Positions 7,945-64,000 of a stretch of 64,000 nucleotides of DNA are shown here, in pieces; the stretch's first letter is position 1, and each line of letters starts with the position of its first letter. Position numbers and translations under genes: made by a program. The notes below the pieces were generated by a model. It saw only the letters and a program-made list of their open reading frames with translations, did not search any database and was not told the DNA's origin. Source of the stretch: Omphiscola glabra (lineage: Eukaryota; Mollusca; Gastropoda; Lymnaeidae); the NCBI GenBank assembly GCA_964017045.1, contig OZ024807.1, forward strand, positions 19,389,813-19,453,812, in the 5' to 3' direction.

Positions 7945-8420
7945 AAGTTCTCAGCTTTGGCCAAACTTGTTAAAGTACTTTCCTAAATATTTCAGCTGGG
8001 ACCAAACTTGTTAAAGTACTTTCCTAAAGTTCTCAGATTGGGCAAAACTTGTCAAAGTCATTTCCAAAAGTTTTCAGCGTGGGCAAAGCTTGTCAAAGTA
8101 GTTTCCAAAATGTTTCAGCTTGGGCCAAACTTGGTAAAGCACTTTCCTATACGTTTCAGATTGGGTCCAACTTGTTAAAGTACTTTCTTAAGTTCTCAGC
8201 TTGGGCCAAACTTGTTAAAGTACTTTCCTCAAGTTCTCTGCTTGGTTCAAACTTGTCAAAGTACTTTCCTAAAGTTCTCAGCTTGGGCCAAACTTTTCGA
8301 AGTACTTTCCTAAAGTTCTCAGCTTTGGCCAAACTTTTCGAAGTACTTTCCTAAAGTTCTCAGCTTGGGCCAAACTTGTCAAAGTATTTTACTTAAGTTC
8401 TCATTTTGGGCCTAGCTTGT
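7945..8420. repeat. ~41-bp minisatellite at the 3' end of R1
   Basis: About 12 degenerate copies of a ~41-bp unit (core on plus strand TTCTCAGCTTGGGCCAAACT then TGTCAAAGTACTTTCC). An AATAAA on the minus strand lies beyond it (7928-7923), so the array probably sits in the R1 3'UTR. The gene-proximal copy supplies the last codons and stop of R1. The plus-strand ORF through it is only a repeat translation. Confidence 0.9.
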
Positions 8421-8643
8421 CAACTGAAAATTCCTTACACGGCTTTAAGTTTTTATCAAAACTGGACTTAATGTTGCAGTAAGTACTGGATGAGTCAAGG
8501 TTTAGACTTTTGGAACAGTCGATCTGAACGTACGCGACTTTATCGGCTTTGTTGAAACTACTGTGGTGTGCCGGTTTTCTCCGTGTCTGCGAATGATCAA
8601 TGGTGACGTAGATGAGTCCATTCGAGCTGTACCGCCCAGGGTG
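8401..8643 (-). CDS. R1 exon 14: ITIM-bearing terminal exon
   Basis: 243 nt including TGA, entered in phase 0 after acceptor CTTACTAG. Encodes 80 residues with LIYVTI, VAYVQI and STYCNI; the tyrosines are 26 and 17 residues apart. The last codons (DKLGPK) and the stop lie in a degenerate copy of the adjoining ~41-bp minisatellite. Confidence 0.83.
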   Translation of the reverse strand, partial: HPGRYSSNGLIYVTIDHSQTRRKPAHHSSFNKADKVAYVQIDCSKSLNLDSSSTYCNIKSSFDKNLKPCKEFSVDKLGPK

Positions 8644-11600
8644 CTAGTAAGATTAAAACCAAAAAAAAAAACAACCCATTAATGGTGAATTTTGTTTGAA
8701 AGTTATTAGGCTAATAAACAAACTTGAATATACACAAATTAATATATAATGAAAGTAGAGTCAATAGGGTTGAGACACCCAGGGCGGTCTCTGATTTTGC
8801 TGACGTCAAACAAATACCACCTTAAGAATACACATTACCACAGACGTGTATATTATACATAGTTGTTTTTCGATAAGTGTCACCACAACAAAAGAAAATC
8901 GGACGGTCCAAACCCTATTCTGATCCACTCTCACTTATTTGACTCCCATTGGGTTAAAAGATTTATGACATAGAACATACGAAGTTAAAATTAGTTAAGC
9001 CAGTTACTAAACTGTTTTTAAACAAAGACATTTATGAAGATTGCAGAAGCATCATGTGAAGGAAACACTTTGGCCGGGAACCTCACCTGTTTAAAGTTAA
9101 CTGTATTTAAAAGTTTTTCTGATGCTGGCGAGGCATCTATGACACACTAGGATAAGTTGTTATAAAGGCTGATACAGTCGCATGTGTTGTGATAATGACA
9201 CAGTGGTATATGTTGTTATAAGAACACTCACATTTTTAAAATAATCTGTATTTAAAAGTTTATCTGATACTGGCCTGGCATCTATGACACTGTCAGATAT
9301 GTTGTTATAATGACACGCATCTGATTCGTTCCTCAAGTTGACATAGTCCGTATCTGTAGAATAGAACATTTAACATCAAAACTTCTCTCAGAAATTTCAT
9401 AATCCCCATGGACCTGGGATAGATAAACAAAAATATAAGTTAATGTATTTTTAACAAATACGATGTATACGAATTTTAACTTATGTACAGTTTTATGTAG
9501 ACGACGTGTTTTAACGTCATGTGTCCCCGTGAATTAACTCTAGCTGACCCCATGCTCGGAACCACCTTTAGGGCGTGGCTAACTAAAAATAGTCTCTATT
9601 GACTTTGTTTACAACTAAATAAATTAATAGTCTGTATCGTATTCTTTGTTTTGGTATTTAACATATGGTATCGTCTTTTGACGTGTACCGTTTTAGAACG
9701 AGCCATATACTTATGTAAGAGATTAATTTCTCCATACTCATTATAGTGTAGCAACAGTATAACTTGTAAACATAATTTAGCTTGTTTTTTGGTATTATTT
9801 TATTTTTATTTTTGTTTATTTTAAAAATGTAAGATTTGTAGTTTTGTTATTAAAATACTGTTAAACTGATGCATTTTTTTGTGAAATGAGATAATTAAAT
9901 AAAAATAGATTACAAAAATGATTATTACAAAATTGTTACTGTTTATTTATGTCATAACTGTACCTCCATTTTATTTCGATTTTCCGGATAATGCAATACT
10001 TAATGTGCTAGTGCATTAAACATTGTGTCATTGAATAATTTTTGTAAAATTATGTGCACACCGCTTTAAAATGTACAGTAACGGCTGAAAAATATAGTGT
10101 AAAAAACCATTTGCGAGAACACTTGGAGTTCAAATTTTTAGACTAATGATTCAATTTTAAATATATATGTTTTTTATTAATTGAAAATTGTATGTACCAT
10201 GTTTAACATTGTTTGAAATTTCATCGAACTATATTCGTAATACGATCATTAGTAAAAGGGCACAAAGCTATTATAAATATTTAGTAATAATGCTGCATAA
10301 AAGAAACAAAAATACTCACCGGCGTGACCCTCTTGTCTCACTATATCGGCGCGTGATTTTGGTCTGTAAATTGGAAATTATACATGCGTAAGTGTCTCAC
10401 AACTTAATAGGGCGATATTATGTTAAAAGTTTAACAATAGTGTATAAATTAAAAATATTTCTATGACTGAGTTATATTTTTTGTTCGATTGACAGTGTAT
10501 TTTCAAATTATAAATAACATAAGGTGTCAAAAAGCGCTTGTAATACCTTAGTAAAAGACTTGATATACATTTATTTCTGCTTTTAACTTATTTTTAAATA
10601 ATATATATATATATATATTTAATTTAATAGTATTTAAGTGATTTTTTTTGGGGGGGGGGGGCGTGAGGGAGGGGGAAATCGTATTTTAATTTATTTTAAT
10701 ACTGGCACAATTCTTTAGGAGATTCAAAAGGTCGGGTATATTTGAATTTGCAAAAAAAACATTTTCATTTAAGATATAAATAATCGTTTAGGGTAATTTT
10801 GTGAGAGGGAAGCACAGCCAATGCGTTTATTGTTATTACTTGTTTATAATAAAACCAGTTCATGATAAATGGGAAAAGTCAATAAATTTACAAATATAGA
10901 AAAAAATATATTTGAACTCCACGAAATGATACTCATGGACTTGGCGACTTTACCTGGACGAAACCGGTTTCTTTTTTAAAACAATCCGCTCTGAAAAAAA
11001 AAAATTGGGGGGGGGGGGGGGAAATAATAATAATCTTACAGATGAAACATTTATTTTTGTTGTAATATATTTTTTCACCTTTATGTGGAAAATGTTATAA
11101 ATTGATAAGGCATCAAACAAAATTTCTTTTATTATACATCTTACACCAAAAACGCTTTGAACATATTGACAACTGATCACATATTCAATAGTACGTATAG
11201 AACTTGTTTTTGTTGTTTTATTTGTTGTTTACTCTGATTGTAAAAAAAAATAGATTTAAAGAACATATATCAGTTTGTGAGGCATGAAGATGGATGTTGC
11301 AAGTTTTTTTTTTTTTTTTGCAGTCAGTATCAGGCGTTGTTACCACAAGACGTATCAATGCGAGCTAGGGACTTAGGCTAAGAAGTTGTCTGAGTGTGTT
11401 GGAGACAAACAATGGCCATTTGTATACGTCCAAAAATATTTTTTAAATAGTATTTGAAATTTTCTGATGATATATACCTGGGAGGTAAATATAATTCAAA
11501 TCAGACGTGTACATAAGATGTATCTTTGATCTCGTTTATATAGTAATTGGGGTATAAAAAACTTTGACGATTGAGAGACTAGACGCTTAGGTAAGAAACT

Positions 11601-14600
11601 AGTGACAGACCGACTGATACTGTCTTTTTTAATGATTTGTAAGTCGATGGATGATAACTGGAATAGAGAATCATGTTTGATGCTGATTTGACGTTATCAT
11701 TAAACAGTTATCCCCATAGCAATACATAGTATGTCTGGTGGTGCAGTAGTTTATTGTTAAGCTGCTCTTGAGATAGAACCTTAGAGAGCTCGTATTTTCA
11801 AGTTGTACAAAATGTTGTCTACTAATTTTTTTTGTTTATCTTTAATTCCCCCCCCCCCCTTTTTTTTCCCCTTTTCCAAACATTCTTGTCAAATTTTCAT
11901 AAATTTGATGGTACGGTTGGAATAAATAAAATTGAAAAGAAATAATGTATTAGCAAATTTAATAGCATTTTAAATTAAGTGAACTTTACTGTGAACACTT
12001 AAAAAAAAAATAAAACTAGGATTTAATCATTATAATCTTTGTACCACTTTTAACAAAAGTCCTTTCTACAATTTTTTAGGTAAAAAAAACTGATGGGCAA
12101 CGGAGATAATTATTTAGTATTCATATCGTATACAGTTTAGAAATATTTGATATTAACTTACTGGTTTTCACAAGAAACACGAACAGCGTCGTAACTGCTA
12201 AAAACAATGTTACAAGAGACAAGCTAATTCCAATTGCTAACAAAATAAACTGAGAATCTGCGGTATAAGGTGCATCAGCTGAAGTGTTGAAAAAGAAAAA
12301 AATACAACGATTAAGGAAGTAAACCAATATAACGTTATTTTTTATATCATCATCCTAATAGAAAGTAAAATATATTTTCTTTTAAAAAGTAATAAAACTT
12401 GGCATTCGCTGGCAGTGCATATCTTTATAAACGACCAATAAACCAAATTAAAATATCATAATTAGAAGCGTATATACAATATTATTTAGTATATACTTTG
12501 CTGCAGCACAAATGTTAAATTGAATTTTCAAAACTATTTCTTCTTGCTCTAAGTATTAATAAAGCAACTTTAAAAAAAAAAAAATTAAAAATTAATACAA
12601 TTTTAAAAAAAACGCCATAAAAACAAACACATGTTATTAACTTTATTACACACCTGTTGTATTGGTATACATCATAAGTGGATGGCATTCGAATTCTGTT
12701 TTGCGATCAGCACTTAGAGAAATGTTGATCATGTATTCCGTATTGTAGTTCAAACCGCTAATTGTTCTAACGATATTATGAACGCCATCTTCCTCAGCAG
12801 TGAAGTAAATATCTCCATAAACTGAACTCGAATCATTCACAGGAACGGCTTTAATTATAAACTGTTGATTCTTTAGGTTTGCTCCTAGTGTGATGGATAG
12901 AGTGATGTAATCTGAACCTCTTTGGGTAACGTTGACATCAAGTGTACAGGTCTCTGTTACATAAGTAAAATAATGCAAACTTACTTTGTACGTTTAATAT
13001 GTATGTCATTTGTATTAATTGAACTTAAAACAGTTTTAATCATGTACCTTTAGACGTAATATATTTTTACTTATTAAAAGCAAGAAAATAATGACACTAT
13101 TATATATACTAATGACTGAGATATGTCTCTTAAAAAATACTTGAAAACAATTGTTTGGTAAGTGCAAATTATGAAGTCTGTGTTTTATTTGTTATATGTT
13201 GTTTTTTTCAAAATATCAAGGCTACTAGAGCCAGTGTAAGTTTTATTTATCATAATCAACATATAAATGAGTGAAATATAAATAGCGAAATACCGTAATT
13301 TAAATAGTGGATATTTAATATTAAAATGTGCGAACACATTGATGTACAAAAAAATACGTTTTTGCGTTTGAATATATATTGTCAGAAGATATTGAGTAAT
13401 TCCGTTTCAGCCAAGGTTAAAAAAAAAAAAATTATTAATAAAGTCTGAGAAATACTGGAGAATAAATGGCATAGTATTGCATTAAACATGTGATACCTAT
13501 GTAATTTTATTGTAGAAAATGTGTTTAAAAAGGTAATACATTCAAAAATTGTAGAGGCTATTGAAATATACCTTTCAACCTGATGTCAAGGGTATAATTT
13601 AGGACGGATATGACGTCAGTGTTGTTGTACATCGTGGTGACATACACTGGATATATGTTAAACTGGTCATCTGCGATATTTAAAAGTTTTATGTATATTG
13701 TAGAATTAGAGAAATGGATAGTGTTTGGGGACCAAAGTATGCAGAAGCTGAGCTGACATCCAGTTTGATAAAGAGTTGTTCCATTAAAGTCAACGACAAG
13801 ACGATGTAACACATTGTGCAGTGAGACATGGACACACGTCTCCATTGTTAGATTGTCTCCAATGTTGGCGAAGATAATCTTTCGACTTGTCTCTTTGTCA
13901 CACAGTTGAAGATTATCTGGGGAAAATGAACAATTTCCTTAAAATGTTAAATCGCAAACGCAAATTGTTTATAATTATGTTTGTTTGCTTCTTATAAACT
14001 GGAATTGGAATGTTATAAATTATTCGTTTACTAAATTTAGTCTTTTAATTTGTATTTGTCTATTTCTACTATTTGCTAAAAAAAAGTAGTTTGTTTGTTA
14101 AAACTTGACTAATATTGGTTTTCCTAAAATTTTAAATTTATATTAAAATTATTAATTTCAAATGCAAAACATCCCACCTGGTAATAGCTTTGTATCAAGT
14201 AATAGGTTCAAGGATTTATTGTCTGTAGTGTTCAGTAGCATACTGTAAACTTTTGCATATTTTGGTACAACATTGTGGATTGAGAAATAAATAAAATGAT
14301 ACATTCTAGATCCATTCTTCATATTAGATATCATATAACGTTGATCACTTGTGTCGTTGTAGGTATGTAGGACGTCATTGATCAGTAGATTTGATGCCAG
14401 ATTTGGAGAAATAACACAAAACATGACAATAATGTTGTCACCAATGTTCACTGTTTTAGTCAGGTTTGGAGAAAATCCTTCACACATAACAGGAGGACCT
14501 GATGAATGGATTTTTTTATTAACATATTCACAAATAATAATACATTGTGTATAGCTTCAAAAATATCTTAAAAATAATGTGGGTAACTTGAACATGTCTA

Positions 14601-17600
14601 AAATTTTCTAAAATGCAATATTCAATTTAAGTGTGATATAAACATATTTATTTAATGCTCATTAAATTTAATTTTAAATTTTAAAAATACAAAGAATTAT
14701 TTTTTTACAATAGAACAATACTCTTTTTAACGTTCATATTTTTATTACATCTATTATCACAAAGACCATCAGTTTTAAGTAAGACAATGTAAGATTATTT
14801 ATCTACTGCACATTTCAATGTATCATTAAAAAGAAAATGTAAAGCAAAAAAGTAACTTACACAATTTTAGATCCAAATCAATGGAGGCAAAATTATTATT
14901 CCTGTCACGATTCTTTTGTTCACATATATATGTGCCTATGTCACTACAGGACATTGGTTGTAAAGTGAGCATAGTACCAGCATTTCCACATGCCAGCGTT
15001 GTGTTATTAAATCTCTTTGTTACCTGTAAAGCCTCATTAGGAGAATACGGTAATTCACACTTGAGTGCCTGTTTGTCTCCAGGATACAAAAGTCCTTGTT
15101 TTTCAAGTGTGAAATAAATACCTTAAATGTAACAAAGTAGAAGATTAAAATAGAAAGTAATTAATTTGTTTGAAATACATCAAAAGTGTAATTTTCTTCT
15201 CAAAGATAATAAAACAAACAAAAAAAAACAACCCTTTTTCTTATAAATCCTGTATAAATGTAATATGCGGCATTTGGGGTTGTGGTGGGGGGGGGGGGGC
15301 TAAATGAACACGCATAACTCACTTTTTAAGAATCCTAATTAGCTCTTCCCCCCTCAAGGCTAGCAATCGTACATTTTGTCACGCCCCTGAAATATGTTAA
15401 TAACCATTTCGCTTTTACACCGCAGATTTATGTCACCAACTTGTTCAGAAAACAAAAGAAATACTAGGCATTAAACGCACTGTTTTGTGGTGGTCGGTCT
15501 GAAAATTTGATTATATTTGCTGACATCAGTAATGAGACTATCTGCCAGGTTTCGGCTCGTTAGGTTGAGGGGAAGAGGTTCAGTTAGACATCTGAAAATG
15601 TTGCCAGTTAGCCACCCAGCCAGCCAGTCAGCCAGCCACACAGCCACCCAGCCACACAGCAACCCAGCCACCCAGCCACCCAGCCAGCCAGTCGCGAACA
15701 AAAGCGAAGTTAATTTAATAATTTAAAAAAGAGCGTTATAAGGTTGCTTCAAATGTATTATGAAGGCCGAGTATATTTCCTTCAGAAACATAAAAATCAG
15801 AATATTTAAACACATATAGATAATAGTTTAATATATATGGTATTGTGATTTTAAGCCATGCATTCTTGTAAATTAAGCTAAAACATACGTTGACCCATGA
15901 CATTTTCTTCTACAATTCATAAAACCGTAATGTAGCTGTAATGTTTTAAGCTGGTGATTATTGTTGTGTAAATAGCTAGCTAGCGTGAAATACGATGTGC
16001 TTTCAGAGTTCCTGTATTATCTGAAGCATCATGTTTACATCATGTATAAAGCAATATATATTTTTCATAGTAGCTCTCATTACCATATACCTCTAACAAA
16101 TAATTAATATTACACAACAGGGATGCTGTTTGGAGTCGCATCTCTTTATACTTTTTGTAATACCATGTGTTACAAATACAACTAAACAGACACTTGCATT
16201 TTCTGCGTAATGAATGAAAACATTAATTATAAGTAGAGTGGGCCTTCAACTCATTCGGCTTCAGCGGCCCTAAGTTATTTAAAGGGTCACAAAGATGGGA
16301 TTAAAACACAAATTTAACTATTAGATTTCAATAGAAGGGCAAGTGGCAAAGGGTCTCTAAATTCCATGTGATGGCTCTGCTATAAATATATTTTAAAAAT
16401 ATTCAAAATAGAAATTCCTTTTCAATCATTATATACATTATCATTATATATTCATCTATGAAAATACGACATTAATATCGTATTACTTACACATAATTGT
16501 TTTCATGAAAGATTGGCCCTTAAAGGGATGCTTAGTATAAAGTTTTTAGATCGTAACAGTGTAAACTATGTAAGTCGTTTTTTTTCTCCATTTGTGATTG
16601 GTCAAAAAGTGGTTACGATAATATACAAGTGTATTCTGTAAAAATGTGTGTGAGCTCCAGGCGATAGTTAGTTCTCTTACGTCATTGGTGATATGATGCT
16701 TATAGATTTTGTTAATACAATTTACATTTGAAATTGTTCCGAATATTGATTATACTATCTAAACTGGTGAACGAAATATAGTGTTCACCATTTTGTAAGA
16801 CGGATTCCTTTGAAGCTACTTGAAAAGGTTGCATTCTCTTTTTAAGACCCAAGCTGCCGTCATTGCGGAACGGCGGCGGAGAAAGTGTTGCACTTTCCGA
16901 GTGCCCGATACTAATGGGTGGAGTGGTTTGGAATTCCCAGATATTCAAACAGAAAGCCTCATCTATGGCGATGTCCAGTAGATTCGGCAGGCGTGCAAAG
17001 TGCTTAGCTCAACAATCATAGAACATTAACTGTGCCAGAAAAGAGAATGTACTATTTATTATTAAGAGGTGTCCAGTGTGCGTAACATCGTGTTTAAAAC
17101 ACCATTATCACGATTAATGAATTATAAATGTATATATATATATATATATATAATTGAAGAATAATTGTTGTATTCTATTAAGTGTTTTTAACGTGACGCT
17201 TATTAAGAATAGTGTTGTAGTTGCAATGAGGGAGCCCAAAGACAACGGATCTAGATATCGTAAATTAAAAGGGACAATCTAAGATTCCAAGCAACAGTTA
17301 TCTATCATAATTACATATCAATATACGATATTTTTAAGAAATGAAAAAGTTACTTGCCTTTGGTCTTGATTATGACTTTCAAATGTAATCTGAGTAATGC
17401 CTTGTTGATAACAGTTATTTCAACGCTTCGATTTTTGTTATTGATTTTTTCAATCAAAAGAAACAAGTCAAATTTGTCTTTAAATTCTGCGCTCTTATTT
17501 ATAACTATTCTTAATCCGATTTTTGTTGTTGACATGGCTAGAATTTTATCATTAAGAAAAACATAATCTAACAAATCCGATGTTGACAAAACACAAAATG

Positions 17601-20600
17601 AGACATTAAGTGAAGTTCCTTCATCGGCAAATACGACTTTCTCATTTTTCTCTTCGCTGCATATTGCCAGGTAATCTAGAATTTGGAAAAAAATATGAAG
17701 GGGGAAAAACTTTACAAATACATACTATTTAAAGTGGTAAATATTTACCTTTGATATCCAATAAAATGTATTAAATTATCGACCGTTATCTTTAAAAATC
17801 CTTTGTTATATTGTCTTAATATATCTAGAATAAAATAATCACTTTTACTCTAAACACGTCATTTTATCTCTCTTTCATTATATCTCTCTATTTCCTTTGT
17901 TCTTAGAAATGGTCGTTTTAGATTTATAAAAAAATATATATATTTCTCTCAGACATAATCTGCAAACAAAAAGTATAGTAACCTTGAAGTTTGACTTCTA
18001 GCTGGAGTGTTAAATGTCGATTAGCCGTGTTGTATATATAATATGTATTGTTTATTGGAGATGTCACACTCTTGTAGAAGAATGTCAAATTGTATTGACC
18101 TACTTTTGCTCCATCTCTAATCAAAACCAAAGACGTATTATTTGTGATGTCATATTTATTCAATGCACTTTCTCCTGAATTAGTTGCATGATAAAATTGT
18201 GAAGCAACAATTGATTTGATTGGTGTGTTTGATGCAAGACACTTATATTTTGTAGTACTCTGATTGAAGTTTACTGTAAGGTTCGGAGACTTTTTCTTGC
18301 GATTGCAAATGTCCATGTGTTCTGAAATATGTAAAACATTAGAGAGAGTGTTATATACATTGCTAATTAACATATACTGTAGCGAGGGCTTACTTCAGAC
18401 TCATTGCTATCTTATGGAATTCTAATTCGTATACGCTCAATGTTTTTTTTTTAAAGAATACAAACAGTAACTATTTTTGAAAAACTTTTCAGGGTCCGCA
18501 TATAGTCTAGGATTTATGGCCATGTCAAATTTGGTTTTAATCCATTGCTTGGTTTTCTTGTTATAAAATAGCAAATTAAAACATATACATGCAAACCAGC
18601 AAACATAGTCACACTGAACTTTATATAAAAGACTCGCCAATATACCAGAATGTTTAAGGCTGTATTTAGAAAAAAGAAAACATATTCTAAAGTGTTATTA
18701 GAGTAGATGTAAATTGTTGGCTTAGTGAAAAAACATTTCGCTAATGTACCAGTCAAATTGTATAATGTTCTCATCTAAAACGTCAGATTTTTAGCATTTG
18801 TTGTAAAAATTAAATTCGGGGACATCCCGTTCCAGCGAAAATTCAAAGTGGATACAGCCATACAAAACAACAAAGCAAAGGTATAAAAAAAACACAAACA
18901 ACAACATATGATTCAAAGAAAAATATATCTTTAAAAAAGTTGCCTTTAAAAAAAAAAGATATCCACCAATAACATAGCTACGCCCATTCATCAATGAAAA
19001 TAGAATGCACTTTCTGAAAAGGATTTTAGTTATCTCTAAGATAGGACAATACAAAGATATTTCAGAACAATAAGTAAGTTAGTTTTCAAATTAAATCTAT
19101 TAAAATCTGAAGGGACCAATAGCTCCCATTTTAATATTTACAATACCCCGATGCCAAAATAAATTAATGTTTAATATTTTACAACAGAGAACATTTAAGG
19201 TTGGATGAAGAGCAAAGTTTTTTTTTTTTTTTAATGTTTCATTAAAATCGTTTGAAAAACGAATATACTTATTTTTAAAATTGGGAGCGCACACAAAAAA
19301 AATAGTTCACTTAAATAATTTTGGAAAACCACTGATGTTTTAAAATTAATGATAGAAGGTATGTTTACCAAGTTTTACCTAGATTCAACAATTTACGTAG
19401 AGCTCGCATTGATACTCAAAGCCTTTTTGTATCGCTCTTGTTAATATAGGGAAAATACAGACTAGTACCGTACACACTTATTTATAACGTCCTAGAAACT
19501 TCAAATTATCTTTAAATCTGATGTCAAATCATTTGAGCAAATCAAAGTGACTTTCAAAAATATAAGAAACATTAAAATGACATATCTAGCATATAAAAAT
19601 CCTTAAATAAAAACAAATCGAACATTCTAGAGTAAAGCAGCTGTGCTGCGTAAGCGGCAGCGTTCCCGAGGTGACTTGGGGGCGTCCACATAGGGTTTTG
19701 CCTCTTCGTGGCGTGGCAGACTAGTAGGGGGGACTTGTCCACCCGAAGCTAAAAAACCCCGGCCAAACGCATGACTCCCAACGCAACGGGAGCTGCCACT
19801 AACATGATTACTAGTTGCTGTTAATGGATATGAGGCTTGGGTGGCCACTAAAACCCATTCTTATGATTTTAGCTACGCGGCCGTGAGAAAGCCGCTCCTA
19901 GGCAACCGTTTCGTCCCGCCACTACCAACGTACCGACCGAAAGACTCCCTGGGCGGTTGGGATTGGCAACGCAACACCAACCCCCCGGAGTGGAAGCAAA
20001 GCCGTCCAGACCCACAGAGAGTGGACTGCGGACGCTTTAAACGCAGCGTCCTCGGTCGACCGGGCCTCCCCTAGGTCAAGGGGGAAGTTCCCGCACGGCC
20101 TGGCGTCGGGTTAAGTCCTTCAGTGCGCTGGATTGTGTGGGGGGGGGGGCGCCGGGGGGCATTAAGAGCTCGCGCTCGACGGCCCACCGACTCCATCTCT
20201 TATGCGACATTTTCAGAGTAAAGCAGAGACGTGAACAAAATAACTATAAAAAAAACTTTTACAAATATAGTGGAAATAAACACGAGAATTATAGAAATCA
20301 ATAAAATATCAACCTAGATGTTCACATATTTTTAGATTCGATTGACTTTTTTTATAATCTGTATATGTTTTTATATGATTATTTTGTTATTAACCCAAAA
20401 ATGCCATAACCCCAGAAAATGTCCATTAATGTTATAATGGGGGCCCCGGTAAGGACATTTTCAGTAAGGTTACGTTATATTCACCACTGAGATATGAACC
20501 CTAAATATTTAATAAATAGTCATTTTCAAATTAAAAGTTGTCATGATAAAAAATAAAAGTTTGAAAAATCGTAAGAGACATAGCGCATAAAAGGAACATG

Positions 20601-22342
20601 AAATTGGTGTTCATTGTCTTGAAAGTTGTGAATGTTTTGAGTTCAAAATCCTATACTTTTAGTCAATATTTAAAAAAAAACAACATTTGTAGCAAGTTTG
20701 ATTTCTATTCAAAATTGTAATTTTATATCATCAGCTTAAATAAGACAACATACAATTTAGGCCCCAACATTGCACTTGAAATATATACAAATATATAAAG
20801 ATGCATTATTTGCTCCTGGATAATGAAGTGTTATTACTATGCATACTAAATTTGATCAAGATCCATTCATCAATGTAGAAACATATCTGGTACAAGTAGA
20901 AATATTTTCCCAAGTATATATTAGATACATTTTGTATCAGAAAGATACACGGATGAACATTTAAACTGGTATTAATTAATTTATATATTAATATATAAGA
21001 CACACAACACATTACACATTACCATTCACATACTGAATACCGGTATGGGACTTGATTTAATGTTTGTATCACTGCCTTTCACAGCATTTAACTGTAACAC
21101 TACCATGTCAATAAGTTTAATGAGAAAACAAAATCTAGACAAAAACATGTTGTGGGTGGCATTTAAGAAGCTTATAATGAATAAATACATGTAGATATTT
21201 AGATTTTAAAGGTAAATCTACTATGGCTTAAAATTGTTCCACGTGTAACAAAAAGTAAGTTTCAGTCTGGACATAGCACCATGTTAAATAAGTATCGATG
21301 TGTCCATTGTATGTTTTACTTGTTATAAATTATCAATTGTAAATGCATACATACCAACAAAGGGACATGGTAGAAGTAATACTCATAGTAGTTAACGTGT
21401 TATGATCGAGTATCTTTGTTAAAATAAGAAAAGTAAGTGTTGTGTAACAAACCTTCTTTTTTAATCAATATATTAAATCCAATGGTTTCATTTTCTTCAT
21501 TAGAAACACGAACGCTGTATCTTTTTAAAGATGTTTCATTTACTCTTGAGATGTTGAAATATACGTGATATTGTTGTTCAACATGTCCTTCTGCTATGTC
21601 AAAATCGACGTTGTTATTTTCATTGATTTTATACACAGTGTTGTCCAGGTGCACATCTTTTAGCAAGGGTGATGAAGAGTTAACAGAAAAGTGTTTTGAG
21701 AAAGATCCGTTTAACTCCACGGTAAACTCATAAGTAGATTCATTGTTGCTGGGTATCAAAATACCTGTGAATACCCATAGCAACAAATATAAGCACAAAA
21801 AGAATAATTTATATATTCAATCTTTACGTGGAAGCTTTCAAGTAATACTTCAGCCAGTGGTTCTAGTTAATTGCTATTTAAAAACGGTTCGTTTTCAAAA
21901 AAAAAAAAGATTACAAATTAAGTTTAATTATATATATCCAAATTATTCTCTACCTTCATTTGCTGATGCTTAGGGATAACACTATTGTTCATTTTACACC
22001 TTAAAAAATATATAATTATCATGTGTTGCATGAACATTGTATTGTTTTTTATACTATATATTTGTGAAATCTTTTTTTTTTAAACATAGAATAGTTTGTA
22101 TTTCAAAACTATTCTTAAGAATAACGTATGACCTAAATAAGACAACAATATATAATACATAGAAAGATATTTTTTTTTTAAAATCTAATAAAAGTTTTAT
22201 ATCGGCTCGAGGCATACACGTTTTAAATTCAATGATGATAATTTGATGATAACATATCCATATAAAAACAAAGCAACAACTTACTTTTACAACATTTCAA
22301 AAGCAGCACAGACAGAATAAAACGTATCCAAAAATTTTGCAT
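8401..22342 (-). CDS. R1: Ig/FN3-type single-pass receptor with three ITIMs
   Basis: Predicted type I surface receptor of 958 aa in 14 coding exons (minus strand, 5' to 3'): 22342-22285, 21764-21453, 18321-17983, 17675-17358, 15121-14861, 14498-14178, 13916-13572, 12953-12654, 12278-12162, 10990-10954, 10363-10320, 9353-9232, 9146-9087, 8643-8401. All junctions keep frame (total 2877 nt with stop). All introns are GT-AG except one GC-AG after exon 4. Order: signal peptide 1-19; cysteine-less domain 20-123; two-Cys domains 124-236 and 237-342; Ig 343-429; two-Cys domains 430-536 and 537-651; FN3-like 652-751; transmembrane about 762-787; tail 788-958. The tail holds LIYVTI (Y890), VAYVQI (Y916) and STYCNI (Y933), each fitting the ITIM consensus that binds SHP-type phosphatases when phosphorylated, plus TDYVNL (Y821), a YxN motif. 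Ligand unknown. An immune or self-recognition role is inference. Exon structure is by eye; alternative exons may exist. Confidence 0.85.
9087..9146 (-). CDS. R1 exon 13: duplicated cytoplasmic exon
   Basis: 60 nt, phase 0-0. Acceptor TTATCCTAG, donor CAG|GTGAGG. Encodes 20 residues, VIDASPASEKLLNTVNF within it, clearly a copy of the end of exon 12 that has lost the tyrosine. Being symmetric in phase 0, it could be skipped without a frame change. Confidence 0.75.
9232..9353 (-). CDS. R1 exon 12: cytoplasmic exon with YVNL and YNNI
   Basis: 122 nt, phase 1 in, 0 out. Acceptor ATTCTACAG, donor GTGAGT. Contains TDYVNL and CHYNNI, tyrosines with Asn at +2 (Grb2-SH2-type YxN) and a hydrophobic residue at +3. 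Its 3' half (VIDARPVSDKLLNTDYF) is duplicated in exon 13. Confidence 0.8.
10320..10363 (-). CDS. R1 exon 11: cytoplasmic linker
   Basis: 44 nt, phase 2 in and 1 out. Acceptor AATTTACAG, donor GTGAGT. Encodes RPKSRADIVRQEGHA. Only this phase is open, and it links exons 10 and 12 in frame. Confidence 0.72.
10954..10990 (-). CDS. R1 exon 10: basic juxtamembrane exon
   Basis: 37 nt, enters in phase 1 and leaves in phase 2. Acceptor TTTTTCAG, donor GTAAAG. Encodes KRIVLKKKPVSS, the positive-inside flank of the membrane helix. Found from splice sites and phase. Confidence 0.75.
12162..12278 (-). CDS. R1 exon 9: transmembrane segment
   Basis: 117 nt, phase 1-1, acceptor with a long T-tract ending AACACTTCAG, donor GTAAGT. 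Encodes a short linker, then about 26 uninterrupted hydrophobic residues (FILLAIGISLS ... TTLFVFLV), then a basic stop-transfer. Equivalent to the transmembrane exons of R2 and R3. Confidence 0.88.
12654..12953 (-). CDS. R1 exon 8: FN3-like membrane-proximal domain
   Basis: 300 nt, phase 1-1. Residues 652-751. The pattern ITLSITLG ... ISGLNYNTEYMINISL matches the FN3 E-F region (L-x-x-x-T-x-Y). A cysteine near each end (ETCTLD, FECHPL), as in the FN3 of R3. Same length (100 codons) as R3 exon 6. Confidence 0.82.
13572..13916 (-). CDS. R1 exon 7: two-Cys extracellular domain
   Basis: 345 nt, phase 1-1, acceptor TTTTCCCCAG, donor GTATAT. Residues 537-651, with cysteines in LQLCDK and METCVH and an extra pair (TGCQLSFC). 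Resembles R1 exon 4 and R3 exon 2 (start xxC, then an I/V-x-F/V-A segment, then the second Cys). Confidence 0.82.
14178..14498 (-). CDS. R1 exon 6: PPxxC two-Cys domain
   Basis: 321 nt, phase 1-1. Residues 430-536. Begins with PPVMC after the split codon, second cysteine in VMFCVISPN. Closely patterned on R3 exons 4, 5 and 8, which also begin PPxxC. Confidence 0.85.
14861..15121 (-). CDS. R1 exon 5: immunoglobulin domain
   Basis: 261 nt, phase 1-1. Residues 343-429. B-strand cysteine in ALKCEL and the F-strand signature CSDIGTYICEQ (D-x-G-x-Y-x-C) identify an Ig domain. The end LKLC completes its last codon from the next exon, giving the junction C-PP-x-x-C. Confidence 0.88.
15515..15725 (-). 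repeat. Dispersed repeat A copy with CAGC/CCAC microsatellite
   Basis: Shares the block CTGCCAGGTTTCGGCTCGTT (plus strand) with the copy at 6285-6515. It contains an expanded CAGC/CAGCCAC simple repeat at about 15605-15690. Lies in the intron between R1 exons 4 and 5. The opposed ORFs here are repeat translations. Confidence 0.6.
17358..17675 (-). CDS. R1 exon 4: two-Cys extracellular domain, GC-AG donor
   Basis: 318 nt, phase 1-1, acceptor AATTCTAG. Residues 237-342, with cysteines in DYLAIC and SFCVLS. Frame continuity to exon 5 requires the donor AAAG|GCAAGT, a GC-AG intron with the strong consensus that such introns carry. The nearby GT (GGCAA|GTAACT) would end in phase 2 and break the frame. 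Confidence 0.8.
17983..18321 (-). CDS. R1 exon 3: two-Cys extracellular domain
   Basis: 339 nt, phase 1-1, acceptor TATTTCAG, donor GTTACT. Residues 124-236. Starts EHMDIC and has a second cysteine in YKCLAS about 22 residues on. There is no DxGxYxC motif, so it is not a canonical Ig domain. Several N-glycosylation sequons. Confidence 0.8.
19629..20226. mobile_element. GC-rich insertion with 12-bp target duplication
   Basis: A ~574-bp block of much higher GC than its surroundings sits in R1 intron 2. It is flanked by the direct repeat AGAGTAAAGCAG at 19629-19640 and 20215-20226, which looks like a target-site duplication. I see no poly-A tail, terminal inverted repeats or clear RT. A LINE 5' fragment, SINE-like element or solo terminal repeat are all possible. 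Confidence 0.65.
21453..21764 (-). CDS. R1 exon 2: extracellular domain without cysteines
   Basis: 312 nt, phase 1-1, acceptor TTCACAG, donor GTTTGT. Encodes 104 residues rich in N-glycosylation sequons (NES, NGS, NSS, NIS, NET). Same length and position as the two-Cys domains downstream but with both cysteines missing, so probably a diverged copy of that domain. Confidence 0.75.
22285..22342 (-). CDS. R1 exon 1: signal peptide
   Basis: ATG followed by a short hydrophobic stretch (MQNFWIRF-ILSVLLL-KCCK), a typical signal peptide. The donor GTAAGT follows at 22284-22279 and the exon ends in phase 1. It joins in frame to exon 2. Too short for ordinary ORF calling. Confidence 0.75.
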
Positions 22343-49900: not shown

Positions 49901-52900
49901 TTGTTTCGGCAACATATCAAAATGGTAGAATCCTAAAAAAATTCCGCGTGACCCTTTTATTGTTCAAATGTATTATTTTTAAATCAATTTTATAAAAATA
50001 TAAGTTCTCACAAAATATATTATTCATTTCAATCTTTGTTTATTGTTTTATTAAAAATCATTATTACCATGCGTGATTTTATTATGATTATCATTCGTTT
50101 TCTTTTAAATCTCAGAAACTTAACGTTGGTCCAACTTTAGGGTATTTCGTTATATTGTGTGACGCAGAGCAAATGGCGCTATAACAAACCTGTTTTAAAA
50201 GCACGTGCTGATTTGCAGCCGTCGTTAATCCCAAATTTGTTCACGGGGAAAATGTTAACTTTGTATGACGTGTCATCCTTGAGATCATGCAAGCTTAACC
50301 CACGCGTTCCATTCTGATCGGTTGTGTATTTAGCCTTGTCTATCATACTTATAGGCTCTGTCCCAGCAGTATCTACAGTTATGTTGAAAGTCTGATCTGC
50401 ACCACCATCGTATCCTGGTCGCCAGCTAATGCTCACCAAGTTGTTTCTGTGGTTGATGACATGGACGTCAATGGGACATTGGGGAGGACCTGCGGTTAAT
50501 ACATATATGAGCTCTCATTATTTTCCAGATGACCCATTTTTCATAAAAAAATACATTTCGTAGAAATACATGAAATTGATGTTATTTATTGTAAAACAAT
50601 ATATTTTCTGCCAATTGTAATATTTTGTTTTATTGTTATATTTTCAAATTGCAATATTGATAAAACAAATACACACATTATACTATCACTATTTCTATTT
50701 TTGCAATGTCCGTCTTCAGAAGAATATGATAAGATATGAAATGCATTTGATATATCCTATGTGGAACTAAGAAGCCATTTCTACTAGGTGCACTACTAAA
50801 TAAACAATTTATAATAAATAGTAAAATATACACATTTAAGAAAATGTACATTATGATTTCATAAATATTTCTTTCCGTTCTAAAAAAATCCTAAACAGGT
50901 AGCAAATATTGAAAATGTGTTTGATTTTTACTTTTATATAATTATTAGCGTGTAAACAATAAGCAGTATATTTATTTCATGTTTCATCCCCTGTCAGTAT
51001 TTGTCTACAACTGAGTAACAACTATTGTCAAAAGTCGCAGTTTTTTAAAGAAACAAAATTACATAAAATAAACAGAAGCCACAAAATAATTACATAATAT
51101 AGTTGACCAACAATAAGAACAGAAAAAAAGGTAACACAAAAACCCTCAAAACTGAGCCGTATAATAAAAACACACTGACGCTCACTAACCTATCGGTTTA
51201 ACCAGGACTTGTGTGGTCAGCTCGTTCTTTGACATAACCCAACCGAACTTGACGTTCATCACTCCGTAGTGCTGTAAGGACATGTTCATGATATTCAGCG
51301 TACCGTTATACCCAATTCTGGAAATGTTGGAAAAGTCTACGCAATATCCATCCGAACATCCGCTGTGAAGAAAGACTATACCATTGATAGAAATGTTGAG
51401 ACTTTTGTTACGGACGGACACGGGCTGGACGATGCAGAATGGTATTTGGGCACATTGACCTAGTAGCGCAGATATTGAATTCATTAATGCAGTTGATTTG
51501 CAGAACTCTGGTGGACCTATTTGAAAAATTATAAAATTTGAAACATTGTTGAAATAGAAATTCGAAATTAAAAAATAACTAAAAAAAAAAAACCCACAGA
51601 AATTTAAAAATAAAATTTAAGTTGCCTACACTTTGCTATTGTTATAGCAGTGGTCCTTTCGTAAAAAGAGTATTAACTGTTTAAAAATTTCTTGACAGCT
51701 CTGATGTTTTAACATACACATTTTTAATTTAAAATTACGTTTGAAACTTCTCTGTTAGAAAAATCAATTCTTACCGTCTTTCAAACTAAGAAAAAACCTG
51801 AACACCATTTCAGCATTGTCAGATGTGTACAGCTTGATATGATTTTCCTTCAGAACATCAGTTTCTTGTATCGGGTTAATTGTAACATTGATATAGTTGT
51901 ACAGATCTGTTTGCTGGTGATCAACCCTAAATCTATCTTGCAAGACTCCATTAGCTGTATACTTCCAGCCATTGATAACTACTTGATTGGACAGCCTGGG
52001 GTAAGCAATCACACAGATTGTGAATGCTACAGACTGTCCTAAGGTCGATAAAATGTCGTTAATACTTTGATTTTGATTGCACAACATTGGTGGACCTGAT
52101 ATAGATATCGGTGTAAAATATAAAAAAGACATCGTTAAATTATTATATTTCTATCAATAATTTTATCGTTGAATTATTAGCCCATTGTAAAAGATTTGTA
52201 AAACATTTATTTTTTTAATGAAACAACTCATCCATCAAAGTATATTTTACTTTAATTTCAAAATAAATATATTTAAATAAAAATAATCTTACAGTGCTTT
52301 TGTTAAGCTAATATTTGTCTTCAAAATCATATGCTAATGCCTCAAATACAAATTTACAATGTTAATTCCTTTTATAGTGAACCATTTCCGAAATAAGCTT
52401 GAATTTAACATTTCCTTAAATATCTTTTAATGATTTAATTAATACTAACTCACTATAGCTTAGTACGCATGCATAGAGATTTGTACACATCGATACATGC
52501 AAAGAACTTTGACATCTTGATACCTACATAGAGATTTGTGAACATCGAGGAACTGCTCCTTATCCCCCTTGTTGCTTGATCTGCAGTAGTATCGCCCGAC
52601 ATTGTAACAGGTTACTTTGAATTTATAAATCAACGTCTTTCCCACCACGGTGGACGGTAGCGGAGTCTGGTCCCAATGTTTATGAATGGAAACTTGACCT
52701 GTGCTCGTATTGGTGGACTCGCAGGTCAATGTCACTTCACTGACCGAGAAGACTTTGTGGAAATTTAAACCTGAACGAAATATAATTTTAAAAAGTCATT
52801 ATATTTAAGTTTGTAAACACAGTTGTTACCAAAGTTAGCAGTACTGAATTAGCCGTATCTTGATTGCGTAAGTTCGCTTGTCCAGTCATTATAGGTTCTT

Positions 52901-54776
52901 GAGTTGTCGAGGAAGTTGTGCTGAACATATGTTGGAAATACAATCTATGCGGAGGAAAGGTATTTCATCGTTGAGCACGATTTTTGCTATTTCGAAACTG
53001 ATCAAGAAGGAGGCTGCATTTTTGAATAAAAAAAAAAGATGATCAACATTTCCGTGAGAGATTTATTAAGACGACAACCATTAACACGTTTATGCTTTTT
53101 ATTGTTGAGAATTTCTTTTTCCGGAATTGTATTTATCTAACGGGTGCAGGAAGGACACACCTTGACAAAGCCGTATGTGCGTGTTAGAATGATGTATTCT
53201 GGTTCTGTTTCGGTCATGGGGTCCAAAGATCCATGCTTTTATTTTTAGGAAGGCGTGGTTCTCGGTCGCAATTCACAGTCACTTTGACAGCTACATGTAT
53301 CAGTCGCAAGTCACAGCCACTTTGACAGCTACATGTATCGGACGCAAATCACAGCCACTTTGACAGCTAAATGTATCGGACGCAAGTCACAGTCACTTTG
53401 ACAGCTACATGTATCGGACGCAAGTTACAGTCATTTCGACGGCTACATTTATCGCCATAGTGCAGCTTCTATAAAAAAAAAACAGTTATATTCTACAAAT
53501 CTGTAAATTTCTTTTTATATCTATTACTTATATTACACATTTTTCGCGGCCATAAACTGTAAAAAAATAGCATTGCTTTACCATTTGTTATTGTACCAGG
53601 TTTATTAATACAAAGTAAATACTTACCAAGTTTCTTCACGAAAGCATGGAGCGTAAACTGACTGTCATTTAAGTTATGGATGATGATGTTGTTTCTCGTG
53701 TAATCTACCAGAGAGGTCCGTCTCAGGTGGAAAGTCAGCATGTTCTCTTGCAGGTTGTCGTTACGCCTCAGAGTAAAGTAACTCCTCGCTGTCTCGCTAT
53801 ATCCAATAGGCATCGGGATACCGTTGTAGAATATCAGGTCTCTAAGCGGAGACCCAGACTTAACGCAGAAGGTCAGCTCTGACGGCTGGTCCAGGTGGAC
53901 GTAAACTGATTTTTCATTGGGTTCATTTGTGCAAGTTGTGATGACATCTGTTAATATAGATAAAAAAAGTATGTGAGTTCTCTGTATATTGCACCCACAA
54001 TCAATGTATTAACTGTTGATTTAAACTTAGATTAATGCGAATTGTGATCTTCTTGTGCACTTACGTAGATAAAAGGCTATGCAATTTTAGATGGTGCATA
54101 TAAATTGATTTTTATTTGGGAAAAAAAAAGATGATAAAATTTATTATTAAATCAAGGTGTCAGTGTAAAGTGTTCTCGTTGAACAATATAATATTTACAT
54201 CTAAAGGCTTCTTTTTTTTTTACTACTTCAAGGCGTTAAAGATGAACAAAGATAATGTGAAGTAAAAAAAATCTTACCTTAAACATGACCTATCAGACTT
54301 CTTGTACATGACCTATCATACTTCTATTACATGACCTATCAGACTTCTGAATTTTTCTAATTTAAGAATGACATTACACTTACACGTGCATGAAATTTAA
54401 TCGTGATAATGATTGCGTCAGGTCTACTTATAGCAAAATGCTGTACACACTTTTATGTATACTTCCTATTACGTTTATTTATTCATCAAAACTTTATCTT
54501 TATCTTGACATATTGGCTTTTTATTTATTCTTACATTCGTACATTTTATATAACGTATGTAGAAATCATATTTTTTCATTTATATTTACATATATACATA
54601 ATGTCTTCTTCTTTTAGTTACCTGATGAACATTTAGTCAGTAAAATGACACAATTTTATCAAATTTACTACAAAAATCAATATCTTACCGTCTGTAGCTA
54701 CTCCAAGCACAAAACAAAAAAATACCAACACCAGTTTCTCTGTTATTGAGCCACGTTCTAAGATATGTATGTGCAT
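46632..54776 (-). CDS. R3: Ig/FN3-type single-pass receptor without ITIM
   Basis: Predicted 892-aa type I membrane protein in 11 coding exons (minus strand): 54776-54689, 53947-53627, 52770-52528, 52095-51775, 51516-51190, 50489-50190, 49370-49083, 48843-48514, 47676-47557, 47385-47347, 46933-46632. The sum, 2679 nt, is one open frame and every internal junction is phase 1. Order: signal peptide 1-29; two-Cys domain 30-136; Ig 137-217; PPxxC domains 218-324 and 325-433; FN3 434-533; Ig 534-629; PPxxC domain 630-739; transmembrane about 757-776; juxtamembrane 780-792; tail to 892. The tail has STYLLG and PQYEDT, neither an ITIM, and two CxxC-like pairs (RCVSCR, MCSTCG). It shares domains and exon phases with R1 but in a different order. 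Ligand and function unknown; a receptor role is inferred from architecture. Confidence 0.86.
47347..47385 (-). CDS. R3 exon 10: juxtamembrane exon
   Basis: 39 nt, phase 1-1. Acceptor ATATTTACAG, donor GTAAAT. Encodes VRNRERCVSCRSL, basic with two cysteines near the membrane. R4 has a comparable exon. Confidence 0.72.
47557..47676 (-). CDS. R3 exon 9: transmembrane segment
   Basis: 120 nt, phase 1-1, donor GTATGT. Polar linker, then TTLLAVFLVVSLLSTVLFLS, then HFR as stop-transfer. Confidence 0.88.
47890..48290 (+). repeat. Dispersed repeat A, long copy
   Basis: About 400 bp similar over its whole length to 59382-59805. Shared blocks include CCACTTCCCGTCA, TTTGGCACA, CGATGACAA, ATGTGCTTTGTATT and a 3' end AACTT(T/G)GTTTTTAGG-like. 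In the intron between R3 exons 8 and 9. Confidence 0.7.
48421..48480. repeat. 16-bp tandem repeat next to R3 exon 8
   Basis: Four copies of GTGATTTAACAAACGA, about 35 bp inside the intron from the R3 exon 8 donor. Confidence 0.85.
48514..48843 (-). CDS. R3 exon 8: PPxxC two-Cys domain, membrane-proximal
   Basis: 330 nt, phase 1-1. Residues 630-739: PPVPCENQ, VPLCLIAYPGL, YHYVNISF. LIAYPGL is nearly the VIAYPRL of exon 4, so these two are close paralogues. Confidence 0.87.
49083..49370 (-). CDS. R3 exon 7: immunoglobulin domain
   Basis: 288 nt, phase 1-1. Residues 534-629: ISFTCSTPS and TCQSIGAYTCVFVS. Ends KVDK plus a split Cys codon leading into PPVPC. Confidence 0.88.
50190..50489 (-). 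CDS. R3 exon 6: FN3 domain
   Basis: 300 nt, phase 1-1. Residues 434-533: LVSISWRPGYDGG (B-strand Trp), then LHDLKDDTSYKVNIFPVN (L-x-x-x-T-x-Y). Flanking cysteines in PQCPID and DGCKSA. Confidence 0.9.
51190..51516 (-). CDS. R3 exon 5: PPxxC domain with extra Cys pair
   Basis: 327 nt, phase 1-1. Residues 325-433: PPEFCKST, LLGQCAQIPFCIVQP, then SGCSDGYCVD, which adds a second likely disulfide as in R1 exon 7. Confidence 0.85.
51775..52095 (-). CDS. R3 exon 4: PPxxC two-Cys domain
   Basis: 321 nt, phase 1-1. Residues 218-324: PPMLCNQN, LGQSVAFTICVIAYPRL, YNYINVTI. Exactly the length of R1 exon 6 and R3 exon 2. Confidence 0.86.
52528..52770 (-). CDS. R3 exon 3: immunoglobulin domain
   Basis: 243 nt, phase 1-1. 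Residues 137-217: VTLTCEST, KHWDQTPL and CYNVGRYYCRSS (F-strand). The donor CTAT|GTAGGT gives a split Cys codon completed by PPMLC. Confidence 0.83.
53263..53454. repeat. 38-bp minisatellite, 5 copies
   Basis: The unit contains GACGCAAGTCACAGTCACTT and TGACAGCTACATGTATCG. In R3 intron 2. Confidence 0.92.
53627..53947 (-). CDS. R3 exon 2: two-Cys domain
   Basis: 321 nt, phase 1-1. Residues 30-136: DVITTCTNEP, then ELTFCVKSGSP. Same pattern as R1 exons 4 and 7. The exon extends about 130 nt upstream of the internal ATG of the open frame. Confidence 0.83.
54284..54347. repeat. Short tandem repeat, 3 copies
   Basis: Three copies of ACATGACCTATCAGACTTCT with small changes, in R3 intron 1. Confidence 0.8.
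54689..54776 (-). CDS. R3 exon 1: signal peptide
   Basis: 88 nt from ATG, phase 1 out, donor GTAAGA. N-region MHIHILERGSITEK, core LVLVFFCFVLGVA. The start is the first ATG of the frame. Confidence 0.8.

Positions 54777-58752: not shown

Positions 58753-58756
<4 letters not shown>

Positions 58757-58838
<82 letters not shown>
58757..58838. repeat. (TA)n microsatellite, about 80 bp
   Basis: Nearly pure TA tract with one CA interruption. Other shorter TA tracts lie at 17118-17152, 34037-34054, 46571-46590 and 58127-58157. Confidence 0.95.
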
Positions 58839-63374: not shown

Positions 63375-63380
63375 TTTATT
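63375..63380 (-). terminator. Polyadenylation signal AATAAA for R4
   Basis: AATAAA on the minus strand about 46 nt beyond the R4 stop codon. Confidence 0.45.
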
Positions 63381-63425
63381 TTCAAAGTTTAACATATTTT
63401 GTTTAACTCATTACTTAAACTGATT

Positions 63426-63616
63426 TTATAAGATTTGATTTTTCACAAAGTCTAAATCAGCGTAGTAAGATTCGTCAAACGTTTTGGTTCTCAGGTATTC
63501 ATCCCTTGTGTCGTTGAACAATTTCTCCTCTAGGCATCCAATGACAACACGGTCTTCCTTTAGGTAGAACTTGTTGGCAAAAAGATGCTTGGCCTTTGCT
63601 AATCGACTCAGGTCGC
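63426..63616 (-). CDS. R4 terminal exon with one ITIM
   Basis: Frame GDLSRLAKAK ... VVIGCLEEKLFND ... DESYYADLDFVKNQIL, then TAA. An AATAAA follows about 46 nt past the stop (63380-63375). Confidence 0.65.
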
Positions 63617-64000
63617 CTGTTAATTTTTTTTTTTCGCAGTGCAGATAAGAGAATGGGATATCTTTAAGCATGATCTTTATTGACCGATTAAACAAGCACA
63701 TTTTATGACTAAATACGATGAAACCATGCCCCCGCCCCCAACTTGCACGTTTTTTAAAACAACCCTCATGTTTTACCGCACAGCACTATTGCAATGACAC
63801 CCTTGTTTAAGGGGCTGTCAAGGCTTGACGTTTTTATATTGATAGATACCCAGGATTAGCTTAAGCTTAACTTTACACGTAAACATCTGGCAGCTGTAAA
63901 TCTTATGGAATCAGCTTAATATAGTTACCTGTGCTTTGAATGCAAACTGTTCTTTTAGAACGGCCGGCGCAGACTGTCCTGTTCCCAGACCATATCTTGT
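63426..64000 (-). CDS. R4: partial receptor gene, 3' end only
   Basis: The last two exons of a fourth gene in the same orientation and layout. Terminal exon 63616-63426 (191 nt with TAA) enters in phase 1 after the acceptor TTAACAG. It encodes 62 residues including EYLRTK and ESYYADLDF, where S-Y-Y-A-D-L fits the ITIM consensus. The preceding exon ends at 63929 with donor GTAACT in phase 1 and encodes CAGRSKRTVCIQST, similar in place, size and charge to the juxtamembrane exon of R3. Its start (63973, after GGACAG) is tentative because the upstream sequence has no clear pyrimidine tract. The transmembrane and ectodomain exons lie outside the window. An alternative reading from an ATG at 63701 is possible but lacks splice support. 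Confidence 0.6.
63929..63973 (-). CDS. R4 penultimate exon (tentative start)
   Basis: 45 nt, phase 1-1 if the acceptor is GGACAG. Basic residues and two cysteines as in R3 exon 10. Confidence 0.4.

Follow-up and report, generated by a model that had tools for sequence, protein, structure and literature searches.

Clustered immunoglobulin-fold receptor genes of the snail Omphiscola glabra include one with a predicted ITAM and dual-ITIM tail

The balance between immunoreceptor tyrosine-based inhibitory motifs (ITIMs) and immunoreceptor tyrosine-based activation motifs (ITAMs) is the core logic of vertebrate natural killer and myeloid receptors. Does a cluster of snail receptor genes with immunoglobulin (Ig) and FN3 domains carry tails of this kind? 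The question is raised by a 64,000-nucleotide stretch of the Omphiscola glabra genome (C15:19389813-19453812, here called the window, in a genome of 744,774,263 bp), for which a preliminary description had proposed a tandem run of minus-strand receptors with mixed signaling tails. We worked with the sequence of one assembly; gene models beyond the window are partial, and genome-wide counts are lower bounds. On the minus strand of the window, splice signals and reading phases define three receptor genes in tandem, A, B, and D, each as a complete model. The predicted tail of D links an ITAM to a dual-ITIM exon, and relatives of that exon recur along the chromosome; on these grounds, we lean toward the view that D is an immune receptor with a built-in (self-braking) limit, in which the paired ITIMs would recruit an SHP-type phosphatase.

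Three receptor genes and the predicted tail of D

The three genes share one plan, consisting of a signal-peptide exon, phase 1-1 ectodomain exons, a single transmembrane exon, and separate tail exons, and the splice models thus bear out the exon order that had been proposed for this strand. In A and D, every ectodomain exon is in phase 1-1 and encodes one domain. Introns are GT-AG throughout, with a GC-AG intron at D exon 4 as the sole exception. The products are predicted from sequence to be type I single-pass proteins with an Ig-fold ectodomain, and a structure model supports the Ig fold for the commonest domain. When the predicted proteins were searched against known ones, a check suggested earlier, each returned a single match at an E value of ≤0.001, to an unnamed product of Lymnaea stagnalis in which the exons are joined: P0002 for A (82% identity over 100%), P0003 for B (69% over 100%), and P0001 for D exons 4 to 12 (72% over 65%; the search with D scored the best 7995 candidates by word sharing). 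The three products likely sit on one L. stagnalis contig. Since P0001 joins exons 4 and 5, a division of D into two genes (exons 1 to 4 and 5 to 13) was ruled out. Exons 1 to 3 of D are not in P0001; paralogs just below the window repeat the exon series (D2, exons 1 to 8; D3, exons 2 to 8).

The ITAM of D lies in exon 12. It has the form DTDYVNL-8-YNNI, conforms to the pattern [DE]xxYxx[LI]x6-8Yxx[LI], and reads DTDYVNLRNDPDAFHYNNI in L. stagnalis. Among the 579 open reading frames (ORFs) of ≥40 amino acids in the window (33,766 amino acids, both strands), the full ITAM pattern occurred in one, namely, D exon 12, and three strict ITIMs occurred together in one, namely, D exon 13. When the D tail was shuffled, three or more ITIMs appeared in 89 of 20,000 permutations and an ITAM appeared in 24 of 20,000. 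Judged by the 11-exon family described below, D exon 13 carries the conserved tail motif [SIVL]xYxx[ILV]. Within the window, tail ITIMs were confined to D among the scanned tails of A, B, and D. The pattern scan found no ITIM in the tail of B, which has eight tyrosines, and none in that of A, which has two tyrosines and an NPQY motif conserved in L. stagnalis; the four matches in A all fall in the ectodomain, and A was rejected as an ITIM receptor. Of two ITIM receptors and two receptors without ITIMs in the preliminary description, an ITIM tail was thus recovered in D, and none was found in A or B.

Exon 13 belongs to a family of at least 11 tail exons, all on contig C15, with 7 members at 19.19 to 19.40 Mb and 4 at 17.8 to 22.6 Mb. 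A profile seeded with D exon 13 and the related exons T1, T2, and T3 was applied to the 200 kb below the window and added T4 to T6, on the same strand. Exon 13 and T2 were also used to search the genome (2 and 8 rows, respectively, at an E value of ≤0.01, all on C15), which added four more, at 17.756 (plus strand), 22.395, 22.507, and 22.633 Mb. Both ITIMs are strict, 26 to 27 residues apart, in 8 of the 11 members (D, T2, T3, T5, T6, L027, L032, and L036). L034 has the second ITIM only (LIYVVM / VQYQEI, spacing 24), and T1 and T4 have neither (V[IV]YVTT / MEFVNL, with the second tyrosine replaced by phenylalanine); at 19.19 to 19.40 Mb, therefore, the pair is present in five of seven tail exons and degenerated in two. 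Few columns of the 11-member alignment are conserved besides the ITIMs. By analogy, the spacing would fit tandem-SH2 phosphatases such as SHP-2, for which suitable ITIM spacing is known from PD-1 and PECAM-1. The ITIM pair is kept in seven related tail segments of this chromosome, which makes it likely that snails, like vertebrates, use clusters of on and off receptors to balance immune-cell signals.

A mechanism can be proposed for D that is modeled on Drosophila Draper, as presented in the available text of PMC4503800, and on general knowledge of vertebrate signaling. Upon ligand binding, a Src-family kinase would phosphorylate the tail; the ITAM would then engage a tandem-SH2 kinase of the Syk/Shark kind, its YxN sites would engage Grb2, and a phosphatase with tandem SH2 domains, of the SHP/Corkscrew kind, would be brought in by the two ITIMs and limit the signal. 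Neighbors without ITIMs (A, with a PTB-type NPxY motif; B, with other tyrosines; and F, below the window, with a degenerated pair) would signal without this brake, so that with unbraked beside braked receptors the output of a cell would be set by the mix that it expresses. The receptors are probably expressed on hemocytes.

Several observations weigh against a self-braking D. The strict ITIM pattern is frequent by chance, with 158 occurrences in the 579 ORFs, and one or two matches therefore mean little. The loose ITAM core (spacing of 6 to 12) was seen 54 times in 23 ORFs, and the strict ITAM occurred once more in 2362 ORFs of 264 kb, in an ORF linked to no exon. The join of exons 12 and 13 is predicted, as P0001 is a partial record that ends inside exon 12, and the final 23 bp of exon 13, including the stop codon, are part of a minisatellite. 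The exons of D are poorly separated by codon score, with exons 1, 4, 9, and 10 scoring below zero. Finally, a receptor with ITIMs alone could have the opposite output to one that combines ITAM and ITIM.

Alternatively, D could be a purely activating ITAM receptor, with exon 13 used in an alternative isoform or not at all, so that D uses no ITIM. The end of the L. stagnalis record within exon 12 is in keeping with this, as is the reading frame of exon 12, which runs open past the donor to a stop at 9163. Exon 13, however, has an acceptor, a matching phase, and a coding-like codon score, and 8 of its 10 homologs (one of them in part) have strict ITIMs at the motif positions. We therefore regard a D that is activating only as improbable and retain the self-braking receptor as the favored reading. 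Two repeats lie in this region. At 9090 to 9165, the latter half of exon 12, which encodes the YNNI part of the ITAM, is repeated in tandem (84% over 76 bp), and this copy has an in-frame stop, as judged by eye; a 41-bp minisatellite of 12 copies at 7933 to 8423 overlaps the end of exon 13.

Duplicated blocks and possible tail exchange below the window

The receptor cluster is real and extends beyond the window. The support for a compact cluster that mixes inhibitory-type with other tails, as anticipated in the preliminary description, comes more from the adjoining 200 kb below than from the window. There, receptor exons repeat in blocks: D-type copies lie at 19.340 to 19.330, 19.283 to 19.273, and (in part) 19.221 to 19.220 Mb, and between them are G-type exons (one Ig domain) and F-type exons (two Ig domains, one GPP-type domain). 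A 10.5-kb stretch downstream of exon 8 is 98.3% identical between D2 and D3 (C15:19320023-19330521 versus 19263200-19273653), segments that by their sequence are the product of a very recent duplication or conversion. The identity of D and D3 is 96% in exon 4 versus 71% in exon 5; consequently, recombination between D-type copies is likely, judging from these sequences. The ratio of nonsynonymous to synonymous substitution rates (dN/dS) for exon 5 was 1.91, 1.36, and 0.86 in three pairs but 0.82, 0.69, and 0.83 over six exons, and we make no claim of positive selection.

F-type copies point to an exchange of tails. The ectodomain-exon block of F' is 94% identical in DNA to that of F'' and 95% identical to that of F''', and the homology stops before the tail; the F' tail exon sits in a 546-bp segment that is 98.4% identical to the F tail segment. 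Since its ectodomain matches F'' and F''' while its tail segment matches F, F' looks chimeric, which suggests that tails have been exchanged by recombination. The V exon of F' agrees with that of F''' at 109 of 109 residues (104 with F''), and the two copies have different tails, which approaches the arrangement of near-identical ectodomains with opposite tails; the first Ig exon of F', however, is 99% identical to that of F'' and only 83% identical to that of F'''. No transmembrane exon was found for F' with a search filter that was not exhaustive (it also missed that of F''), and three hydrophobic ORF stretches between its V and tail exons were not taken as exons. The F'' transmembrane exon has a 1-nucleotide gap relative to that of F''' and has lost its GT donor. 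Neither F' nor F'' can therefore be called a working paired receptor. F itself likely comprises a transmembrane exon, a long tyrosine-rich exon, and a degenerate-ITIM exon, found in that order. The tyrosine-rich exon beside it (C15:19369982-19370809, minus strand; ~276 amino acids) has YNPDGT-like repeats and represents a tail type unlike the ITIM exons.

The failure to find a transmembrane exon for F' and the damaged one of F'' would be expected if secreted or decoy receptors and decaying copies dominated and the cluster were mostly a graveyard of a once diverse family. Against this, the reading frames of A, B, and D run uninterrupted for 892, 353, and 938 codons, respectively, the genes have conserved counterparts in a second species, and none of the six exons compared in D2 and D3 contains a stop; we consider a graveyard very improbable. 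In-frame stops in FN3 copies were dropped as a sign of decay; the query had run into flanking intron, and the D3 exon is open.

Formally, the genes could instead encode neural or developmental Ig/FN3 adhesion molecules, with tail tyrosines that serve endocytosis or Grb2 binding and an incidental ITIM pattern. The Ig and FN3 profiles also match domains of titin, sidekick, contactin, and DCC, and the A tail has an NPxY endocytosis/PTB motif. However, conserved neural adhesion genes look different from a cluster with tandem duplication in blocks (98.3% identity over 10.5 kb) and with a tail-exon family in which two ITIMs keep a near-fixed distance, and dN/dS reaches 1.9 in single ectodomain exons, although it is 0.69 to 0.83 over six. 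Adhesion molecules are thus an unlikely explanation. For the complex as a whole, we see even chances that the dual-ITIM exon family lies inside a block-duplicating Ig/FN3 complex that corresponds in molluscs to the leukocyte receptor complex, with tails exchanged between receptors and an ITAM and paired ITIMs on one chain.

Relation to known receptor systems

Vertebrate LILR, KIR, SIRP, and CEACAM genes are clustered Ig receptors with ITIM and non-ITIM tails. The snail genes resemble these paired receptors in their Ig ectodomains, their clustering, and their ITIM and non-ITIM tails; unlike them, the ectodomains within the window are at most 22% identical. The paired-receptor layout suggested earlier does not hold there in its strict form: the similarity of A and D is limited to a core of five domains (22% identical), and the ectodomain of B is a single Ig domain. 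An origin independent of vertebrate paired receptors is likely.

Draper is a Drosophila receptor with EGF repeats. As described in the available text of PMC4503800, it exemplifies ITAM, ITIM, and NPXY motifs in invertebrate phagocyte receptors, with ITAM and ITIM swapped by splicing; in contrast to this one gene as described there, the motifs here are distributed among several Ig-fold genes. The oyster protein CgIgIT2 is a molluscan Ig-domain transmembrane ITAM receptor expressed mainly in hemolymph, and its account in the consulted portion of the review PMC11999971 gives, unlike what is predicted for D, no ITIM and no gene cluster.

The closest known systems are Botryllus FcoR, Hydractinia Alr, and the Biomphalaria transmembrane clusters. 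According to the accessible sections of PMC12065747, the FcoR genes at the fuhc locus of Botryllus schlosseri encode clustered single-pass Ig-fold receptors with an ectodomain of V-Ig, sushi, and two C2-Ig domains and with tails that carry an ITIM, a hemITAM, or a plain tyrosine motif, and ITIM/ITAM balance is reported in tunicate and cnidarian (Hydractinia) allorecognition loci. The snail cluster is like FcoR, as portrayed in those sections, in combining Ig-fold receptors with inhibitory-type tails and others without. Unlike FcoR as portrayed there, the predicted D chain alone holds a full ITAM and a dual ITIM. A further difference is that A, B, and D gave no Pfam match at an E value of ≤1 to sushi, nor did they to C-type lectin, TMEM154, or fibrinogen.

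In the available parts of PMC10875847 and PMC7494358, single-pass receptors, some with Ig and FN3 domains, are described for the Biomphalaria polymorphic transmembrane clusters PTC1/GRC and PTC2 and for the B. sudanica LG16 and LG5 CTL/Ig/FN3/TMEM154 clusters; in PTC2 genes, the transmembrane domain is the only known one (PMC7494358). Marks of the PTC/GRC clusters are extreme polymorphism between haplotypes and an association with parasite resistance. The genes described here are likewise clustered and single pass, a link that is one of kind. They differ from some PTC1 genes in having no TMEM154 match (none was found in P0001 to P0003 either, at the same threshold) and no C-type lectin match. 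Unlike FREP/VIgL proteins, which are secreted and have fibrinogen or lectin domains after the Ig part, they lack such Pfam matches and have a transmembrane exon. The word ITIM is absent from the accessible text of PMC10875847 and PMC12297450, and a literature search by title or abstract, with subscription journals mostly outside it, found no paper on snail ITIM receptors.

Thus, ITIM Ig-receptor clusters, a molluscan ITAM receptor, and snail Ig/FN3 clusters are known, and what is new here, as predicted from sequence, is the dual-ITIM exon family and a putative ITAM-ITIM receptor. If correct, this would place ITIM/ITAM logic in protostome receptor clusters and offer a candidate signaling mechanism for schistosome-resistance-linked snail transmembrane clusters, for which none is described in the available portions of PMC10875847 and PMC7494358. 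Direct tests by phosphopeptide pull-downs, hemocyte transcripts, and haplotype comparison become possible.

Gene models, borders, and other features of the window

Genes A (11 exons, 892 amino acids, 54776-46632), B (7 exons, 353 amino acids, 38574-32122), and D (13 exons, 938 amino acids, 22342-8401) are listed exon by exon in Table 1.

Table 1. Exons of receptor genes A, B, and D, in window positions
Exon	Feature	Position	Strand	Remarks
A exon 1	Signal peptide	54689..54776	-	ATG, hydrophobic core, phase-1 donor
A exon 2	Ig-fold domain (V/GPP type)	53627..53947	-	Domain-exon profile; 82% to P0002
A exon 3	Ig domain	52528..52770	-	
A exon 4	GPP-type Ig-fold domain	51775..52095	-	
A exon 5	GPP-type Ig-fold domain	51190..51516	-	
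A exon 6	FN3 domain	50190..50489	-	Pfam fn3, 25.4 bits (cutoff, 25)
A exon 7	Ig domain	49083..49370	-	
A exon 8	GPP-type Ig-fold domain	48514..48843	-	
A exon 9	Transmembrane	47557..47676	-	KD 2.73
A exon 10	Juxtamembrane	47347..47385	-	
A exon 11	Tail with NPQY	46632..46933	-	90/100 residues identical to L. stagnalis
B exon 1	Signal peptide	38514..38574	-	
B exon 2	First part of Ig domain	37961..38065	-	
B exon 3	Second part of Ig domain	37247..37447	-	Ig profile of A and D, E 1.2e-4
B exon 4	Transmembrane	34895..34999	-	KD 2.25
B exon 5	Juxtamembrane	34245..34278	-	
B exon 6	Micro-exon	32928..32953	-	26 bases; restores frame; also in P0003
B exon 7	Tyrosine-bearing tail	32122..32651	-	No ITIM
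D exon 1	Signal peptide	22285..22342	-	Like exon at head of paralog D2, E 0.008
D exon 2	Ig-fold domain without Cys	21453..21764	-	Profile E 2.1e-8; also in D2 and D3
D exon 3	Likely Ig-fold, divergent	17983..18321	-	Profile E 0.55 only; also in D2 and D3
D exon 4	Ig-fold domain, GC donor	17358..17675	-	In P0001
D exon 5	Ig domain	14861..15121	-	
D exon 6	GPP-type Ig-fold domain	14178..14498	-	
D exon 7	Ig-fold domain	13572..13916	-	
D exon 8	FN3-like domain	12654..12953	-	Aligns to A exon 6; own model weak, pLDDT 68
D exon 9	Transmembrane	12162..12278	-	KD 2.69
D exon 10	Basic juxtamembrane	10954..10990	-	In P0001
D exon 11	Tail	10320..10363	-	In P0001
D exon 12	ITAM DTDYVNLRNESDACHYNNI	9232..9353	-	Conserved in P0001
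D exon 13	Dual-ITIM exon	8401..8643	-	LIYVTI, VAYVQI (26 apart), plus STYCNI

The single Ig domain of B is divided between two exons. Alignment with P0003 gives seven extra residues around the join of exons 2 and 3, where the donor seems to have moved downstream, and a genome search with B exon 7 at an E value of ≤0.01 returned that exon alone. No Protein Data Bank sequence matched the GPP-type exon profile at an E value of ≤10. The intron that separates exons 4 and 5 of D contains a 98-amino-acid ORF (16715 to 17008, minus strand) with a mildly coding-like codon score (11.4 bits).

Four receptors had been counted in the window, and three complete models remain. Ig, GPP, and FN3 exon profiles run on 1502 ORFs of ≥25 amino acids gave nothing further below an E value of 0.04, and neither an ORF at 39814 nor a signal-peptide-like exon at 42287, tried as a fourth receptor, could be connected by eye with any domain. 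The latter exon (42229 to 42287, minus strand; MTAMRTVFRTVVILMAFMG) is an orphan with a phase-1 donor and no domain exons after it. The piece at 63.4 kb that had been taken as the upper end of the cluster was likewise rejected as a receptor. It (window 63427 to 63637) had no Pfam match, and its resemblance to a glycosyltransferase is one that we presume. An ORF just above the window (L028 2575-3426, minus strand) is a Core-2/I-branching enzyme (PF02485, 91.5 bits). Given their order, their strand, and this presumed resemblance, the 63.4- to 63.9-kb region is probably the end of a Core-2/I-branching glycosyltransferase gene that borders the cluster and has its main exon above the window. No receptor exon was matched in the 10 kb above the window.

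ORFs at 60509 to 61458 (plus strand) resemble what we take to be an RNase H/non-LTR retroelement fragment, and a search of phage records with them found nothing. Long tandem arrays occupy 41253 to 41644, 36059 to 36329, and 35652 to 36000 (periods of 58/174, 55, and 31/155, respectively), in the stretch that separates A from B and within an intron of B.

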